Positions 4,702 to 46,649 of a stretch of 64,000 nt of DNA are shown here, in pieces; within the stretch, counting starts at the first letter, position 1, and every line of letters starts with the position of its first letter. The stretch covers positions 1,827,501 through 1,891,500 of the forward strand of contig JARUPZ010000006.1 in the NCBI GenBank assembly GCA_031213475.1, written 5' to 3'. A program made the position numbers and the translations under genes. Below the pieces are notes generated by a model, which made no database searches, had not been told where the DNA came from, and saw nothing but the letters and a program-made list of their open reading frames with translations. This stretch comes from Nereocystis luetkeana (lineage: Eukaryota; Sar; Phaeophyceae; Laminariales; Laminariaceae).

Positions 4702-19420
<14,719 letters not shown>

Positions 19421-30076: not shown

Positions 30077-31010
30077 AACTGCACACCTCGGAGATATCAT
30101 GATCTATCTGATCTATCTACTGTAGATGATCTAGTTCCTCCTCACCTGCCCTTCCTTGTGAGAGGTCGAGCAGGGGCTGCTATAATAGTATAGTACAGAT
30201 CCAACGCAGGAAACATGTATGTATGTGCTGAAAAAAAAAGGAGGAAGACTCACACCTATAAAGGGAGAGAAGGCCTGAAGAACAGGACTAGTGAGGGGGC
30301 GGCCACGAGCAGAGAATCTGATGCAGTCCTGGCGACGACGCCAAATGTGTTGGGGGAGAAGACAAGAGTGCCAAGCGACGATGATCCACACGGGACAATT
30401 AAATATGACACTCAGGTGTCTGTGCTTGGTCGAGCTCAGACCCGGTTCGTGTTGACGTACTCTTACCAGGTATTTATCGGTGAGAGGCTAGTTGCTCAAG
30501 GAGGTAGGTAAGTGAAACGACTGAAAGAGGGGGGGGGTGGGGGAGGTGGCTTGAAGCCAGACAGAAGTAGTATGTACTCTCTGGCTCCAACCGGGTGTAT
30601 TCTACTTGCGAGGGTGCGTACGCCATCCCCAACTTCAATCATACGAGCAAACACCCCGCGAAGCCTGACGTATGGACATACATACCACGTGCGTGCGTAC
30701 ATCTGATATGATTCAGCGTTTCCTCGGGCTACTTGGAATACTAGCCTTGCCCACCTGTACGAGTATTGAAAATGCAAATATATTATCCCAAACGGTAAAT
30801 AAAGGAGATGAATCCAACAATAATGAACACTATCCAACAGATCCTACAGATGTACGGTAGGTAGGTGTATTTACTGTCAGGTATTAATTTAAACCAGGTG
30901 AATACTCCATCACACCATGCGGATTCTGTGGGTCCCACCCGGCAACATGAGCTAGATCATACAGATCATACAGGATGGGGAATACATTTTCTTTGAAACA
31001 TCTGTCGGGG
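30077..31010 (+). mobile_element. Family-D repeat, copy 3, split by about 0.7 kb
   Basis: The left half (TGCACACCTCGGAGATATC to GATCCAACGCAGGAAACATG) ends near 30215. The right half (TGGGTCCCACCCGGCAACATG then AGATCATACAGATCATACAG) resumes near 30928. The sequence between is absent from other copies and may be a later insertion. Confidence 0.5.
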
Positions 31011-32945: not shown

Positions 32946-33793
32946 TATTAAAGGTTTATGGCGCAGAACCTACTAGGTATGGCGATTGGCGTGTGTACCA
33001 GCTCGTAGCTGGTGTGTACGCCTAGACTCGATTGCCGATGGCCGGCAATACACAGTCAAAATGTTCGAGGCAAACACGTAGTCACTGTCAGGTGACTAGT
33101 ACGTGAAGCTTCAACATAGAAGAGAAGAAGATGGTGTGGTGACCCCAAGCCACATTGTTGATTGATTGCTCAGCTGGAAGCTGATGATGATGAGCAGATG
33201 TAGAGCAAAAGTAGAGTGAGCTCAAAGGGGAGGGCGGTGCGCGTGTGCGCTCGCAGCTCGCAACAAAGGACGACCCTTGCACTTCGGTCAAACAAAAACA
33301 AAATGAGGGAATACCCTCGTATTCCGTTCAAAATAAAAACAACGAAGAGAACCCCCAGATTTACTGTAAAGAACAATATATCTTGGGGTACATATCCATG
33401 ACCCCAGTGTAGCCTATGTTGTTCCTCCAACCAGAACTACATTGTAACAGTAAAACTATGCTACCGGTCTCGGAGGGATACTGAAGATACCCTTTCCATT
33501 ATGCACCAATGATAGCACGTACTAAATGTGCTGTCTACCGTAGATCATGTACGTACGTACCACAACAACAGTAGATCCATGGCACTACTCGTCATTGGGA
33601 CTTTATTTTGTGCGTACGGGTGTGCACAGCAGTATATGCGTAAAAAGACAGCTGCTGCTATCCTGCTATACAGTATAACTCAGACTGGAAAACTGTCTGT
33701 TGTACATATAATGCGTAAATGTATACCAGATGATGTAAGTGTAATCGAGTAACGAATATGATGGTTACTGACAAGTAAGTATCATCTCTAATA
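32946..33793. repeat. 5' LTR
   Basis: Begins TATTAAAGG and ends CTCTAATA. Consists of a ~210-bp hairpin-rich head and a ~637-bp body. The body contains a 74-codon open frame (33528-33752) of no known family, present in all three copies. Confidence 0.85.
32988..33105 (+). ncRNA. Structured RNA head of the 5' LTR (three hairpins)
   Basis: H1 at 32988-33022: a 15-bp stem with G-T wobbles and loop TCGTA. H2 at 33031-33049: 7-bp stem ATTGCCG/CGGCAAT with loop ATGGC. H3 at 33075-33105: CACGTA/TACGTG plus GTCAC/GTGAC. CTCG (33027) can also pair with CGAG (33066). No known ribozyme core (for example hammerhead CTGANGA...GAAA) is present. Transcription and strand are inferred. Confidence 0.55.
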
Positions 33794-34644
33794 CCTCCTC
33801 CCGTTGAGCGTACACTGTGTCAGCTCGAAGCTGGTATACGCGTAGCGTGTGTCAGCTCGTGGCTGGTATACGCTCAGACCCGCTTATCGATGGCCGATAA
33901 GACACAATCTGGAGAGGGCAAACGCTTAAGCTGCCGTTAAGCAAACTTGTATGTGTAAGCTTCTCTTGTAAGATAAAGAGATGTTGTTGGCGACTCCTGG
34001 CCAGTGTTGATTGATTGCTCAGCTGGAAGCTGATGATGATGAGCAGATGTAGAGCAAAAGTAGAGAGTGAGCTCAAAGGGGAGGGCGGTGCGCGTGTGCG
34101 CTCGCAGCTCGCAACAAAGGACGACCCTTGCACTTCGGTCAAACAAAAACAAAATGAGGGAATACCCTCGTATTCCGTTCAAAATAAAAACAACGAAGAG
34201 AACCCCCAGATTTACTGTAAAGAACAATATATCTTGGGGTACATATCCATGACCCCAGTGTAGCCTATGTTGTTCCTCCAACCAGAACTACATTGTAACA
34301 GTAAAACTATGCTACCGGTCTCGGAGGGATACTGAAGATACCCTTTCCATTATGCACCAATGATAGCACGTACTAAATGTGCTGTCTACCGTAGATCATG
34401 TACGTACGTACCACAACAACAGTAGATCCATGGCACTACTCGTCATTGGGACTTTATTTTGTGCGTACGGGTGTGCACAGCAGTATATGCGTAAAAAGAC
34501 AGCTGCTGCTATCCTGCTATACAGTATAACTCAGACTGGAAAACTGTCTGTTGTACATATAATGCGTAAATGTATACCAGATGATGTAAGTGTAATCGAG
34601 TAACGAATATGATGGTTACTGACAAGTAAGTATCATCTCTAATA
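33794..34644. repeat. Internal LTR-like tandem unit with a different head
   Basis: 34006-34644 matches the LTR body apart from a 2-bp AG insertion (GTAGAGAG for GTAGAG), while 33794-34005 is a strongly diverged head. Both this unit and the 5' LTR are followed by the same 22 bases (starting CCTCCTCCCGTTGAGCG), so the junction was duplicated too. Confidence 0.8.
33808..33942 (+). ncRNA. Structured RNA head of the internal unit (four hairpins)
   Basis: Equivalents of the LTR hairpins with changed bases but kept pairing. H1-like pair: 33808-33841 (loop TCGAA) and 33844-33874 (13-bp stem, loop TCGTG). H2' at 33883-33901: CTTATCG/CGATAAG with the same ATGGC loop. H3' at 33924-33942: GCTTAA/TTAAGC. 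The GGCAAAC linker before H3 is conserved. Confidence 0.55.
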
Positions 34645-36238
34645 CCTCCTCCCGTTGAGCGTACACTTTCTTACTCTGCGTTACATGCTAAAACTTCTTA
34701 AAAAGAAACACACATGCAACATCAAGGAGTGATATTGTTTTGGGAACACTTACTTGTACATAATGTACCTGTATGATGGTTCCAAGGATATTCAGGTGTA
34801 CATGATGTACCTACCGGATGAGATCCAAGGAGTGAATTCAACACATGAAAGGGCAATAAAATAACCGAACATAGAATCGTTCTGTTCTATACCTGGTATC
34901 ATACTACTGCAACACCTGCTTGTATGAGGTGGGTGTGTATACCTAAACTACATACGAGGGTTGCTACAGGAGTACCTGGTAGTCTTTATAAAGTGAAAAT
35001 GGTTTGTCGATCCGCTACAATCACAGGAAAGAATAAACCTGGTCGAAAGTTCCTGCCGCCCCCAAAATAAACAAAGGAACAATGTGGACGATCACTGCAA
35101 GTGGTTTACTGCTTGCTCAAAAGACTACCAGATACAGTAAGTAGTACATTACCAGAGTTCCCTGCTGTATCCCCCAGGTGCGTCCCCGGGTAAAAAAGAA
35201 GATGCACACGATGATACATCCTGATGATGATGACACTCCAGCTTGTGGCGGTGGTAGTGTTCCATTCTGTGATGATGACGTTCCGGTCCCTGATGAGGAA
35301 TCTTTTGTTAAATATTGTAGTTCTTGGTGAGGTGATCTCGTACGATACTACAACAACACCAGTAGTACCGTATACCAGGTACCTGGTATACAGCAGTATT
35401 TCTTGGAGTAGCTGCCGCACGATGCTCGGGGATCCCGAGGCTTTATATTTGCCGTATGTATATTACAGCAGTCGGCAGTGTACTGCTGTAGTATCATCCA
35501 GATGAAGGTGATGATACAACAGTACACGGGTTCCTTCTTGATGATACAAGAAGCAGAGCTCAGCAGTCACCACAGGCAGCGATGGCCGGGAGATGCTTCC
35601 TATAATAGATTTTGCTCGTGATTCACGAGGCTGACAAATCCACACCAGTAGTGGATGGCGCCTAGCAATGCCTCTAATCTACAGGAGTACTGTGATTGTC
35701 TTTGGGGTAGCTATTGAAACAGCACCAAGCTACGTAAGTACTCGACGCGATGCACTATCGAGATTTGAGTTATTTTCAGGGGCTTCTCCTTGATGATCCC
35801 GCGGGGAGGTCCCTGTTGGAAATTTGTGAAGTCAGGGTCCCTTTTTACAGACGGTGGTACCGCCGGGAGTTACTTCTATACAACTGCAGCTCGGATTGCC
35901 CGAGGCTGACGATCCACGATGTGGACTACACTAGGCAGAGCTCCTTAACCCCAGCGGTGCTGTGAGTTGTGGCGAAGTTGTCCTTGACAGCGTACAGCAG
36001 TATAATAATACTCGACGTTGAGTCAAGATTTTTCGAGTCCACACTTCGTATGAGAAATATGGCCGGAGGTGAGATGCACACAGTAGATAGCAGTACTGCT
36101 CTGTGCTGTGTGATCAAGACACGAAACTAAACTGTTGTCGTACGTATCCTCCTCGGAGAAACTATTTGCTATTATTATAGTTCTTGTTTCAACGGTCGTG
36201 TGGGGTCACGGATCCACGTGGAGTCCAATGACGACTGT

Positions 36239-37144: not shown

Positions 37145-37992
37145 TATTAAAGGTTTATGGCGCAGAACCTACTAGGTATGGCGATTGGCGTGTGTACCAG
37201 CTCGTAGCTGGTGTGTACGCCTAGACTCGATTGCCGATGGCCGGCAATACACAGTCAAAATGTTCGAGGCAAACACGTAGTCACTGTCAGGTGACTAGTA
37301 CGTGAAGCTTCAACATAGAAGAGAAGAAGATGGTGTGGTGACCCCAAGCCACATTGTTGATTGATTGCTCAGCTGGAAGCTGATGATGATGAGCAGATGT
37401 AGAGCAAAAGTAGAGTGAGCTCAAAGGGGAGGGCGGTGCGCGTGTGCGCTCGCAGCTCGCAACAAAGGACGACCCTTGCACTTCGGTCAAACAAAAACAA
37501 AATGAGGGAATACCCTCGTATTCCGTTCAAAATAAAAACAACGAAGAGAACCCCCAGATTTACTGTAAAGAACAATATATCTTGGGGTACATATCCATGA
37601 CCCCAGTGTAGCCTATGTTGTTCCTCCAACCAGAACTACATTGTAACAGTAAAACTATGCTACCGGTCTCGGAGGGATACTGAAGATACCCTTTCCATTA
37701 TGCACCAATGATAGCACGTACTAAATGTGCTGTCTACCGTAGATCATGTACGTACGTACCACAACAACAGTAGATCCATGGCACTACTCGTCATTGGGAC
37801 TTTATTTTGTGCGTACGGGTGTGCACAGCAGTATATGCGTAAAAAGACAGCTGCTGCTATCCTGCTATACAGTATAACTCAGACTGGAAAACTGTCTGTT
37901 GTACATATAATGCGTAAATGTATACCAGATGATGTAAGTGTAATCGAGTAACGAATATGATGGTTACTGACAAGTAAGTATCATCTCTAATA
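37145..37992. repeat. 3' LTR
   Basis: Offset from the 5' LTR by exactly 4199 bp at both ends. TATTAAAGG to CTCTAATA, directly followed by the CAGTA duplication. Confidence 0.85.
37187..37304 (+). ncRNA. Structured RNA head of the 3' LTR
   Basis: Sequence and folds identical to 32988-33105. Confidence 0.5.
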
Positions 37993-38678
37993 CAGTAGTA
38001 TTCTAGACAGCAGGAGAGATGACAACCTGACCCGACCGGAGCCGGTCCAACCCTCTAAACCCCTATCCCACTCATTCTCCAAGTCCGACACAACAAAATC
38101 GATCGACAGCATAAATAACGCGAAAAATAACTTACCTATAGCAAAACCAGTGCAGGATATACCAGGTATAGTGGTGATTACAGTAGATGCACACATTGAC
38201 GGGAGCGCGATGTCATCACCCCCCCCCCCCCGCTTCCCCTCCAACAACAATAAAAATATCCTCGCCTTGCCTGGCAGCCAGCCAACCCACGGATAGGTTG
38301 GTTGGGTGGGTGGGTGGTTGGGTGCGTGGGGTGGGGGGGGGGGAGAGAGAGGAGGGGAACTCGTTGTGTGCCTCACGCGAGGACGGGAACGAGTGGGGCT
38401 CATTGGGGGTATGTGTCCAAGAATACGCGTTGTTTGTTCTGTCTTTGCGAGCCATTCTCCCAAGAGACTCGACGGAGAGCATAATAATCACGTCGTCGCC
38501 ACATGCTGCTGCTGCTGTCAACCGCTGCTCGACTTGGACGGGGGCGACGCATCCATCCGTCCTGCCATGCAGCTGATCATCCATCCATGCATTAATGCTT
38601 CCATCCATCAGCCATCCGAGCGCTCACGTGTAAATGTATGTTTTCATGCATGTATCCCACCGATGTCATGCTATATGT

Positions 38679-41855: not shown

Positions 41856-44800
41856 CTAGCTGCCACTGAGCAGGGCGTTGATGGCAGCGTTCTCGTCCCA
41901 GTCGTTCGAGGCTAACGCTCTCCTAGCCTGAGGCTCGGGGAAACCCATGTCGCACACCCTCTTTACGACGTCCTCGTTGCCCTCTGGATCGCGCACCTGG
42001 CATCGCAACAAGTATTGTCGTTGGCATTGTCTTCTTGTTAGTGGTGTTACTGTTGTTATCATTATTATTATTATCAATATTATTACTACTATTACTACTA
42101 GTAGTAATGTTATTATTGTTATTGCAGCAATATCATTGTCAATATTTTTCGAAGTACTACTGCTTCTCATAGTATTATTACTACCTGGTATATTAAATAC
42201 CATTACGCTCTGAGTCGACAAATAGTTTAAATAAAAACCAAAATAAACGTGGACCTGGCAGGAAGATTTACCAGCAGGAGCAGCAACAGCAGCAACAACA
42301 ACAACAGCAGCACCGCCACAGCGGGTACAAACTTCCGTGCCCAGTATTGATGTATCGACAGTACATAAGAGCACCTGAGCGTAAGTCTCTGTCCAGAATG
42401 TGGCGGTACGGTTGTACGAGTCCCGATTCATCTTGTACATATTCGCCACCTCGGCGTCCTAACGACAAACACGCGAGCAGCATCACATGCATGCATGTTC
42501 AGGAGGGGAATGGGGAGTATCGCAATTGACGGCCCAATTCATTGTTTTCACATCTCGGGAAGACCATGATCTATCTGATCTGTCTACAGTAGATGATCTA
42601 GTTCCTCCTCACCTGCCGTTGTGAGAGGTTGTGCAGGAGCTGCCTTAAGAGTACAGATCCAACCCAGGAATTCATGTGCTACTGCTGTAGATTAGACGGG
42701 TCCCTCCCGGCAATAAGAGCCTAGATCATACAGATCATGCAAGAATATAGATAGATCTGATCTGCTTTGAAATATCAAGATCATCAACGGTGGGAATCGA
42801 TAGATTATCTGTACATGATCTGTTCGAGGTGTGCAATAATCTCAAATAATGGACCCACGCAAATTGAAATCATGGATACAAACAATCCCGAAAAATTACG
42901 CACGCAACAAAACCAAAAATCATGGCTACAGCCAAGGACACAAACAACCCCAACCATGGGCCAACACGAAGTAAAATCATGGACACACACACTATCGCAG
43001 AACATGGACCCACACAAACCTAGTGATGGGCATGAAACATATCATAGGGCTATCACACTGGATCAGTATAAACTGGCAGCTTTTCATCGACTGATAGTAC
43101 GTATATGCCGACTGAGAGCGTGCCAGAAAAATGTCAGTATGCTTGGTCTCACTTCCCGCATGATCATTGTACCAGTAAGTAGTTCTACCAAATAATGGAC
43201 ACAAACTATCCCACATCACGAACACGCACAGACAATACCAATTTTTGGACACACGCATATACGGAGTGTATATGTACCTGTGGGTCGTTCGGCTTCGTGG
43301 AGCACCCCACAGACCCACAGATCCAAATCATGGACCCACACAACACACCCAACTCATGGACACACACATTATACCCAGATCATGGACTCATATATATAAT
43401 ATAAAGTATAAACCAAAGGTAGATCTGTATCTGCCTGTGGGTGGTCTGACTCGAGAGAGTACACGATGGACCCACACATCTCAATCATGGACCCACAAAA
43501 CACCCTCAAACCATGGACACATACCCAAACAATGGATACACGCACAGCACATACAAATCATGGACACACACATCAAACCTGTACGAACTATTCTACACAT
43601 AAATACACGAGGTATACAGTCTACATTTAGTACCTGCGGGTGGCTCGGCTCGGGGGAGCACACCATGGACCCCAAAACCCAAATCATGGACTCACACAAC
43701 ACACATATACAACACACACACAAACACACACAACACCCAAAGCATGGACACACGTGTTCTACCTGTGGGTCGTCCGGCTCGGGAGAGCACATGAGCGCCT
43801 GCAACGAAAGCAGCGCAGTCTTGATCGTCAGCGCAGGGGACCACTGGTCTTTCAAGATATCCTGAAACAGTTCACAGCATAAATGAGGGGGGGGGTCAGG
43901 GTAGGGACGGCAGGGCGGGTCGGGGATGGTGGCGGCGGCGGTGGGGGTGGGGTACGGAGAAGGGGGGCTGGAGGGGGGGGAGGGTGGGCGGGGAGTGGGA
44001 CGGGGCGGGGAATCGAGGGTATTGGGGAGGCAGGGGGGCGGGGGAGTACTCGATATTATGCATGGCCGTAGCCGGGAGGGGGGGGGATATGTCATGCATG
44101 GCCTTAGTCGTACGATCGTAGACGTTCGCATCCCAATATACAATGTCGGGACAGAGAGAGGACGTCTGGTTTTCACCCAGCAGGCTGGGTGGGCAGTGGG
44201 GGGGGAGGAGGCGGGGTGGAGGAGGGGGGGTAGAGTCGGGGGGGCGGGGGGAGGGGGGGGCGCTCGAGGCCGGACGCGGTATCGCTCGCTCGCGCATATG
44301 TATGCTTGGCGTCGGACGATACCCTCAATTTGTTGTGGAGAGAGCGTCACGACGAGCGACGCGCACCGCTTACGCAGTGACCACGACGGCGCGCGGCCGC
44401 GCGCCAGGACAAAGAAGCGGGGCGGCACGAGAGGGTGTTCAAGGGACCTTCGTCGCGGAAAAGGAAGAAAAGCCGACGGAAAAGGTACCAAATATGATTT
44501 TTGCCCGACAAGGCACATACAACGGAGGTGTGACAAATAAACAAATCGTTTCCGCTGTTCACAAAAAAGAAAAGAAAAAAGAGTGACAGTCGCAGCAACA
44601 GCAGCAGCAGCAGCAACAGCAGCAATTTTGTCCACATGCAACTGACCAAGCACATCGTGCCAATAGCAGCAGCAACATCAGAAGAAGCAGCAGCAGAAGC
44701 AGCAGCAGAAGCAGCAGCAGAATAAGCAGCGGCATGTATTTGCCTGTAGCTCACCAAGCACATCGCGCCAACAGCAACACCAACAACAACAACAGCGGAC

Positions 44801-46649
44801 AGCAGCAGCACTATTACCCCAACACCTCCGGAAGTGGCTACAACGGAAATAAATTTGACTCATTGAAGCTGTCATCCATATGCAAGCCCGCCCCACAAGC
44901 GATTCTTATTAATAGGAGGATGCAGCTCGCCCTTAATGCGACTCGCCGGACACCTCACGGTGCTTCGCGCTTGGTGAAAACAATGTCTGCCTGGTCGGTG
45001 AAAATCCAACGTGCTCCGTTCCGGCATTGTAGGGATGCCAGGGTCTACGGTCATACGACTACGGCCATGCATGAGATCGAGTACATCTCTCCTATCGAGT
45101 ACAACCCCCTTCCCACCCCCCCCAGTATGCCTGGTCGGCGAAAACTCGACGTGCTCCATCTCGGCATTGTAGGGGTGCAAGGGTCTATCCATGGTCATAC
45201 GACGACACCCCCCCCTATCCTGCCTCGCCTTCCCCGCCCCCCACCAGCACCAGCACCACCAGCACCCTTGCCCCTCCCGCAACAGAAAGGGGATACGCTC
45301 AGCCAAAAGCTTTCATGTAACGTGGATGCGGCATAACGAACGCCCCAACCGTTGAAGGTGTTTTTTAGTAGGAATAGGAGCGGCTCCCCGTCTCGAAAGG
45401 GATGCTTGGTCAATGGCCACATGACTGAGGGAGGAAACAAATGGGTACCCCCCCCCCCCCCCGAACCACCCCACCCCCAACACTCCCATGGCACCATCAA
45501 CGCCATGGTCAGGTTGCAACTCAACTCACCAAACAGATAGCGCCGGTCTGGGAGGATATGTTCGGGTGCCAAATTTTGGTAACAAATTTCATCTTGGGTG
45601 GCTCGAAAGGATAGCCTGACGGGATGTCGATGTTGATGAGAAACGTGCCCCCCTCAAACGGCGAACCCTTCAAGACAGAAAACAAAAAACACGAAAAAAA
45701 CACGAAAAAAAAACAAGGTCAAGGGAAAAACAAAATATGGGATGGGATGGGATGGGATATGGTATGGTATGGTACGGGAATGGGGATGGGGTGGGGGATG
45801 GGATGGGAAGGGATGGGAATTTTGATAAGAAAAGTGTCCCCCTTGACAGACTAACCCTAAAACACAGCAGAACAGCATCAATAAAACAACGTGGGGAAGG
45901 ACAAACATATGGGATGGGATGGGATGGGATGGGAGAGGAGGGAGTGCGATAATACCACATGCATGAAAAGAGAGACAATATTAATAAAAAGACAAGAAAG
46001 TGGGATGGGATGGGGTGGGATGGTACGCCATGAAATCATATCTACATAAAAAACGAGAGAATGTATACATGTGAAAAAAAGGAAAGAGAGACGGGATGGA
46101 ATGGGATGATAGTTTGTGGGATAGGATGGGAGGGGTGGAGGGAGAGGGTGAGGGGGGAGGTCAAGAGAGCAAGCGAGAACAACAGCGCCAACAACACGAA
46201 AATAACAACACCCCCCCCCCCCCCCCCCGCTCCCCCTCTCCCATCACCACAACCCCCCCCCCCCCCGTACGCCAACACAACCATCTCCAACTCCCGCTCC
46301 TCACCACCGGCCCAAACACGGTCCCTTCTAGCTCCGAAAAGGAAACCCCTTCAGGATCGCCGTTAAACCCGAACTCGTGTCCCCCTTCCCACAAACACCC
46401 CTCAGCCGGTTCTTAATGCCGATCTCAGACATGGAACTCCCTTTAGGGTCACCAACTACCACCAATACCACCACCACCACTACCACTGTCACCACCACCA
46501 TCGCCACCCCCGCTTCTCACCTCCGGCCCCAGGACGGTCCCCTCCAGCTCAGACATGGAACTCCCTTTAGGGACAGCCGTCACACCCGAATTCGTGTCTC
46601 GAGCGCACTCGGCCAGCTCCTTGCGGACGCGGCTGGCATCTCCCGCCAT
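41856..46649 (-). CDS. UBE2K: E2 ubiquitin-conjugating enzyme with C-terminal UBA domain (UBE2K / yeast Ubc1 type), 5 exons
   Basis: Class II E2 that carries ubiquitin as a thioester and passes it on with an E3 ligase; this family builds mainly K48 chains. Minus-strand exons in transcript order: 46649-46521, 45667-45530, 43861-43763, 42458-42375, 41996-41856; frame holds through all joins and gives 196 aa (human UBE2K is about 200). Visible: the N-terminal helix ([12 protein letters not shown]), [13 protein letters not shown], the [16 protein letters not shown] strand with the HPN motif, the active-site Cys in [15 protein letters not shown], and [15 protein letters not shown]. The UBA domain covers about residues 155-196 ([27 protein letters not shown]). 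An in-frame TAG lies 18 nt before the ATG. Introns 1-3 contain decayed copies of the tail of the exon before them. Sense poly(G) begins 44 nt after the stop. Confidence 0.95.
42551..42834 (+). mobile_element. Family-D repeat, copy 4 (most complete)
   Basis: The left end CACATCTCGGGA is inverted relative to the right end GTTCGAGGTGTGCA. Internal blocks are GATGATCTAGTTCCTCCTC, GTTGTGAGAGGTTGTGCAGG, CAGATCCAACCCAGGAA and AGATCATACAGATCATGC. It lies in UBE2K intron 3. Confidence 0.6.
43276..43308 (-). repeat. Exon-tail echo of UBE2K exon 3, farthest copy
   Basis: The minus strand reads [12 protein letters not shown] against the exon end [12 protein letters not shown]. The CAG|GT junction is kept. 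Confidence 0.75.
43432..43464 (-). repeat. Exon-tail echo of UBE2K exon 3, middle copy
   Basis: The minus strand reads [10 protein letters not shown] where the exon ends [10 protein letters not shown]. The donor GT has become GC. Confidence 0.7.
43632..43661 (-). repeat. Exon-tail echo of UBE2K exon 3, nearest copy
   Basis: The minus strand reads [14 protein letters not shown]. It is the closest match to the real exon end, lies 102 bp away, and keeps an intact GT. Confidence 0.8.
43870..44260. repeat. G-rich low-complexity stretch upstream of UBE2K exon 3
   Basis: Mostly G with A and T on plus, so C-rich in gene sense, forming an extended pyrimidine tract before the exon 3 acceptor. It produces a spurious 390-codon minus frame. 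Confidence 0.7.
44040..44185 (-). mobile_element. Family-E repeat fragment, copy 3 (minus)
   Basis: On the minus strand GTCTACGATCGTACGACTAA, GGCCATGCATGA and ATCGAGTAC precede a C-rich tract (G-rich on plus). GGCCATGCAT occurs twice. UBE2K intron 2. Confidence 0.55.
44640..44665 (-). repeat. Exon-tail echo of UBE2K exon 2, far copy
   Basis: The minus strand reads IGTMCL then GTCAGT; the exon ends TGAICL|GTGAGT. Flanked by CAG/CTG repeats. Confidence 0.7.
44746..44775 (-). repeat. Exon-tail echo of UBE2K exon 2, near copy
   Basis: The minus strand reads VGAMCL|GTGAGC, with the donor consensus kept. It shares CACGATGTGCTTGGT-type changes with the far copy, so one echo was copied from the other. 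Confidence 0.75.
44858..45205 (+). mobile_element. Family-E repeat, copies 4a and 4b in tandem
   Basis: A full copy at 44858-45120 (ACTCATTGAAGCTGTCATCC to ATCGAGTACAACCCCC) is followed by a 3'-half copy at 45123-45205 (TGCCTGGTCGGCGAAAACTC to GGTCATACGACGAC) with its own C tract. It lies in UBE2K intron 2, antisense to the gene. Confidence 0.7.
45352..45461 (+). mobile_element. Family-F repeat with poly(C) tail
   Basis: CCCGTCTCGAAAGGGATG, TGGTCAATGGCCACATGACT and GAAACAAATGGGTAC, then C14. The complement appears at 46839-46925 and 63126-63230. Confidence 0.7.
45735..46110. repeat. (GGGAT)n degenerate pentanucleotide array
   Basis: Runs of GGGATGGGAT at 45737-45765, 45905-45935 and 46000-46020 with looser copies between. 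UBE2K intron 1. Confidence 0.75.
46300..46381 (-). repeat. Exon-tail echo of UBE2K exon 1, long copy
   Basis: About 80 bp aligns with the exon 1 tail. The minus strand reads DTSSGLTAI, shifts frame, then [10 protein letters not shown] and a GTGAGG donor; exon 1 has DTNSGVTAV...[17 protein letters not shown]. Confidence 0.85.
46424..46448 (-). repeat. Exon-tail echo of UBE2K exon 1, short identical copy
   Basis: 25 bases are identical to exon 1 positions 46548-46572 (encoding PKGSSMSE), then similarity stops. It lies 72 bp from the real donor. Confidence 0.85.

Follow-up and report, generated by a model that had tools for sequence, protein, structure and literature searches.

Exon-edge copies in introns as probable relics of local tandem duplication

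Several long introns carry degenerate copies of the edges of their own exons, and we interpret these copies as relics of local tandem duplication rather than of a mechanism that targets 5′ splice sites (probability about 0.8). The copies are specific to the neighbouring exon, lie nearby in the same orientation, mostly comprise both exon and intron parts, and occur on the donor side as well as the acceptor side. Array units are mostly about 70–240 nt apart, and some have been amplified to three to six copies. Local duplication appears to be a general habit here, with the exon copies as its fringe where it reaches into exons.

Exon copies in the window

The window, the whole stretch of 64,000 nt that was analysed, corresponds to bases 1827501–1891500 of contig C6 in an assembly of 465 Mb and 1987 contigs. 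The copies reported in the initial annotation belong to two minus-strand genes, a UBE2K-like gene, which also encodes a UBA domain (41868–41999), and a PSMA6-like proteasome gene; on homology, they are putative orthologs of UBE2K and PSMA6. Exon ends in the window were set by the reading frame together with GT/AG. Exon tails were aligned with their own introns by the Smith-Waterman method (scoring 2/-3/-6/-2). The exons and copies are as follows, a slash within a motif marking the exon–intron boundary.

46521–46649, minus strand: UBE2K-like exon 1, source of two tail copies; open reading frame from ATG, ending CCGGAG/GTGAGA
46424–46451, minus strand: tail copy A of UBE2K exon 1; 27/28 nt identical, exon part only, score 51
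46290–46381, minus strand: tail copy B of UBE2K exon 1, with donor-like GTGAGG at 46304; score 83
45807–45874, minus strand: acceptor-side copy of the head of UBE2K exon 2, in intron 1, spanning TTTTAG/GGTT; score 38
45530–45667, minus strand: UBE2K-like exon 2; PF00179 match, 4.6e-18
44750–44769, minus strand: claimed tail copy of UBE2K exon 2 in intron 2, marginal; score 25
43763–43861, minus strand: UBE2K-like exon 3, source of three tail copies; defined by reading frame and GT/AG
43631–43662, minus strand: tail copy 1 of UBE2K exon 3, with donor-like GT at 43633; score 39
43430–43466, minus strand: tail copy 2 (middle) of UBE2K exon 3, donor decayed to GC; score 39
43275–43305, minus strand: tail copy 3 of UBE2K exon 3, with donor-like GT at 43277; score 38
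43188–43752, minus strand: degenerate tandem array beside UBE2K exon 3 that holds all three tail copies, defined by self-matches; family D8
13686–13891, minus strand: PSMA6-like exon 4, source of one tail copy; PF00227 match, 1.5e-13, on 13687–13889
12825–12876, minus strand: tail copy of PSMA6-like exon 4, no GT (AC); score 44

The array in UBE2K intron 3 is delineated by the self-matches 43188–43367/43349–43524, 43316–43549/43518–43744, and 43271–43390/43628–43752. In strict alignments, its three tail copies include just 3–5 intron bases. The copy in PSMA6 intron 4 lies about 850 nt from its source exon.

Eight tail copies in four introns had been claimed. Six of them, in UBE2K introns 1 and 3 and PSMA6 intron 4, are well supported, with own-intron scores of 38–83. 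The remaining two, in UBE2K intron 2, are not established: both sit in a CAG-repeat stretch, and the better one, for which alone an individual score is available, reaches 25, which lies within the range of the control pairs and is attained by 7/400 randomised introns. The acceptor-side copy in UBE2K intron 1 had been overlooked; it scores 37–38 (31 after masking), and 0/400 randomised introns reach 38. The first intron-like bases of the copies are at 46304, 43633, 43277, and about 44754, a shift of 1–8 bases from the donor positions first given. A GT is present at 46304, 43633, and 43277, but the PSMA6 copy has AC and the middle intron-3 copy GC.

The window provides 12 usable introns, from the UBE2K-like and PSMA6-like genes and a ferredoxin-like gene (PF00111 on its second exon). 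Own-intron scores of at least 30 are obtained for 3/12 tails and 1/12 heads, versus 0/264 mismatched tail/intron and head/intron pairs, the maximum of which is 27; the start of PSMA6 intron 6 is one base off in this comparison. None of 400 locally randomised introns reaches the best observed score for UBE2K intron 1, UBE2K intron 3, or PSMA6 intron 4, the null maxima being 32, 28, and 30, respectively. Chance similarity within low-complexity introns could explain the intron-2 candidates in their CAG repeats, but it is refuted for the three other introns by the randomisation and the mismatched pairs, and we regard it as a most improbable account of the copies as a whole.

Exon edges across the genome

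To the window we added 77 conserved proteasome and ubiquitin-conjugating-enzyme exons outside it, picked genome-wide regardless of copies; the window loci L020, L044, and L066 were set aside. Exon ends in this sample are predicted, and the flank per probe is 600 nt. After removal of 13 donors and 10 acceptors (weak or unfound splice site, short flank, or probe largely masked), 64 donor and 67 acceptor probes remained. Searches with the Cpn60 and AAA families added no exons, the listed matches all being equal-scoring, on small contigs, and apparently of plastid origin.

Donor probes match their own downstream flank in 5/64 cases versus 2/960 shuffled pairs, and acceptor probes match their own upstream flank in 3/67 cases versus 0/1005. 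The observation thus withstands the shuffled-pair comparison called for in the initial annotation. Inverted own matches number 2/64 and 0/67, respectively. The donor match at L061 consists of intron only, and that at L036 enters the exon (by 19 nt) under permissive scoring only; hence junction-spanning donor cases amount to three (strict) or four (permissive) of 64. On the donor side, L033 has five copies of exon tail, donor, and intron head, with starts 118–157 nt apart, L039 has six copies (permissive scoring), and L023 has two. On the acceptor side, L072 and L076m have three copies each, and L021 has one clear and one weaker copy. Judged by position, L033 and L072 are one gene. Exon-edge relics therefore occur at a notable rate of about 5% of junctions per side, a figure based, outside the window, on six to seven cases that span a junction, some in a shared gene (L033/L072, as with UBE2K introns 1 and 3 in the window).

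The copies have the attributes of partial tandem exon duplication: exon-derived sequence is present in introns of the same gene above chance, it is close to its source and predominantly in the same orientation, and it includes flanking intron sequence, except in UBE2K copy A. The proposal of a recurring duplication across exon–intron junctions holds in that such copies recur in the genome, as the shuffled pairs indicate, add intron sequence, and leave decoy-like donors. The part of the proposal that does not hold is the anchoring on the donor. Acceptor-side copies are similarly frequent (3/67 versus 3–4/64; Fisher p 0.71 with 4), and the exon part of the copies is variable, from 12 to 78 nt. 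Heads are copied as well as tails, the head copies being those of L021, L072, L076m, and UBE2K intron 1. The first 57 exons outside the window had given five tails and one head at scores of at least 30; a donor-only bias was considered on that ground and dropped because 20 further exons gave no tails and two heads.

Local repeats near exons and deep in introns

Local copies are found for 16/101 intron probes placed 40–240 nt from the exon on the donor side and for 15/107 on the acceptor side. The combined rate, 31/208, exceeds that of the junction probes (8/131; p 0.014), indicating that junctions are repeated less often than the adjoining intron. Deep-intron probes, 440–640 nt from the exon, have local copies in 5/92 and 6/90 cases (11/182 in total), a rate equal to that of the junctions (p 1.0). 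The near-exon excess over deep intron has p 0.005 by probe and 0.025 by locus; probes from one locus are not independent, and the deep-intron probes come mainly from loci with 1.5-kb flanks.

Repetition on this scale extends across the window. Of 145 evenly spaced probes of 105 nt, 11% are followed by a direct copy in the next 1.5 kb downstream, whereas distant comparisons give 0.7% (n = 435). Inverted local copies are frequent too (7.6% of the 145 probes), indicating that local similarity is not all due to tandem duplication.

Structure and decay of the arrays

At least three copies besides the exon's own sequence are present in L033, L039, L072, L076m, and UBE2K intron 3, and fewer in UBE2K intron 1, PSMA6 intron 4, L021, L023, and L036. 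Array units have changes in common that are not present in the exon. The two units of L023 agree with each other at 88% and with the exon at 70%; the sharing of changes absent from the exon indicates that part of the growth occurred within the intron, and the lower agreement with the exon arises partly because the unit starts just 15–21 nt inside it.

Copies closer to the exon had been described as more similar to it. Identity to the exon falls with distance in 4/5 arrays, a weak tendency that is convincing in none of them (the one perfect order comprises three points only), and it rises in UBE2K intron 3, where the identities are 0.65, 0.64, and 0.67 with growing distance; three more filler units that lack the exon tail were set aside in that alignment.

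Across 27 copies of ten junctions, exon and copy diverge by 0.164 at the first codon position, 0.124 at the second, and 0.209 at the third, and the intron parts by 0.176; differences at third positions are mildly over-represented (p 0.009). This pattern fits, without proving, the expectation for a constrained exon and a freely decaying neutral copy. The G and T of the copy donors are kept in 31/40 places versus 351/417 for 22 neighbouring positions (p 0.28; totals summed by hand).

A model for the origin of the copies

Units would arise by slippage, template switching, or unequal exchange, and would occasionally extend over an exon edge. A duplication across the donor would not alter the protein as long as splicing continues at the first donor, and the same would apply to one across the acceptor as long as splicing continues at the last acceptor; such exon-overlapping duplications may therefore survive selection. 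The extra copy would then become intron, so that the intron lengthens and the copy decays, and the donor-like GTs within copies would be by-products. Two observations stand against the simplest form of local tandem duplication. Introns are repeated more near exons than deep inside, which plain uniform duplication does not predict, and the distance of the PSMA6 copy from its exon is far for a single tandem unit.

The near-exon excess leads to a more specific and more tentative model, which we consider possible but doubtful, in which the first and last 200–300 nt or so of introns are a hot zone of tandem amplification on both exon sides. Introns would grow outward, and the order of splice sites (first donor, last acceptor) would let arrays that overlap coding sequence persist, with exon relics at about 5% of junctions per side. 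The same excess could also come from mobile elements filling the centres of introns.

Alternative explanations

The initial annotation favoured duplication anchored on exon–intron junctions, which could take the form of a process triggered at the 5′ splice site or by its transcript (an R-loop, bound U1, or a nick) that repeatedly copies the exon tail with its donor. Such a process would account for the excess of tails over heads in the window (three introns versus one) and for the enrichment of repeats immediately downstream of donors; yet elsewhere acceptor-side copies are equally common, the near-exon rate is similar on both sides, and the junctions themselves are repeated less than the adjoining intron. 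We consider donor anchoring improbable. Still less probable is that the copies are functional, that is, alternative exon ends or decoy donors maintained by selection. Some copy donors are as strong as the real one (in L023, GAG/GTGAGATA), and the mild third-position excess also counts in favour, but GT is lost in several copies, the donor G and T are kept no better than their flanks, and codon positions 1 and 2 diverge almost as much as intron.

Re-insertion near the own gene of exon pieces that had been reverse-transcribed or captured by mobile elements is very unlikely. In its favour, UBE2K copy A is devoid of intron sequence, and PSMA6 intron 4 and UBE2K intron 3 share the filler motif GTCCATGATTTG. 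Against it, most copies include a donor or acceptor together with intron sequence, and the copies are nearby and same-oriented, with few inverted own matches. Local tandem duplication remains the reading we prefer.

With regard to the filler motif, GTCCATGATTTG (sense strand, at most one mismatch) occurs 12 times in the window, at 13562–13617 and 42843–43749. These sites are confined to PSMA6 intron 4 and UBE2K intron 3, both of which contain exon copies, and among 80 exon records the motif is found only in the window's own L020 and L066.

Relation to known duplications

Minisatellites and degenerate tandem arrays in introns consist of head-to-tail units of local origin with shared unit changes. 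The arrays described here have these properties as well; unlike in intronic minisatellites, one edge of some arrays falls inside coding sequence.

Exonize classifies exon copies that cross exon boundaries or lie in introns, and in the genomes analysed there, significantly more genes have such partial copies than full-exon duplications (PMC12343006). Our copies resemble its classes in that a portion of an exon has a match within an intron of its own gene and degenerate exon pieces lie in introns. Exonize relies on protein-level matches in annotated genomes, whereas the present comparison is at the nucleotide level, the units are partly intronic, and the arrays have up to six copies. Genes in human segmental duplications have internal tandem repeats at exon–intron boundaries (PMC2812944), which likewise change gene structure, but those repeats are recent and variable and can give rise to new introns or to alternative splicing, whereas ours are degenerate and within existing introns. 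It is accepted that introns can be gained when AGGT-bearing segments undergo tandem genomic duplication (review PMC3443670; further entries PMC2891723 and PMC4974935). There too the duplicated segment has splice-site sequence, but the duplication is within an exon and makes a new intron, whereas the present duplications extend across a junction that already exists and do no more than lengthen its intron. Among the titles and abstract openings listed from a partial literature collection, none describes such arrays of an exon tail together with its donor.

The kind of event is therefore already known, and it is the rate that is notable. The present figure is the first measured rate of exon-edge relics, on both exon sides, in the introns of this long-intron genome. 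The relics are a record of intron lengthening, their decoy splice sites may be taken for real ones by gene predictors, and they offer events for studying how the spliceosome chooses between near-identical adjacent sites.

Other repeats in the window and the genome

In the flanks of the 77 exons (L009–L088), local repeats are commoner at 40–240 nt than at 440–640 nt on both sides. In PSMA6-like intron 5, (AAGC)n repeats extend over about 3.4 kb (7705–11114; 99% matches), and the donor of PSMA6-like exon 6 lies about 60 nt from a regular 27/55-nt minisatellite (6146–6704) with 19 copies of the unit CCGATATCCATCACTACCCACCACTAG. Direct copies at 32946–33794, 33831–34667, and 37145–37993, two of them of 849 bp and 100% identical and a third at 92%, resemble an LTR element of recent origin that has one additional LTR. 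A dispersed short repeat family at 42549–42850 has further copies in the window at 14087–14296, 17484–17760, and 30082–30218, and at least 43 genome-wide matches for a query covering part of the family.

Among the small contigs (C53 onward), at least 70 have an equal-scoring groEL-like match and at least 20 an equal-scoring AAA-family match. Judging from these matches, the contigs are probably a plastid genome in many fragments, and the combination of the two families suggests a plastid genome of the red lineage.
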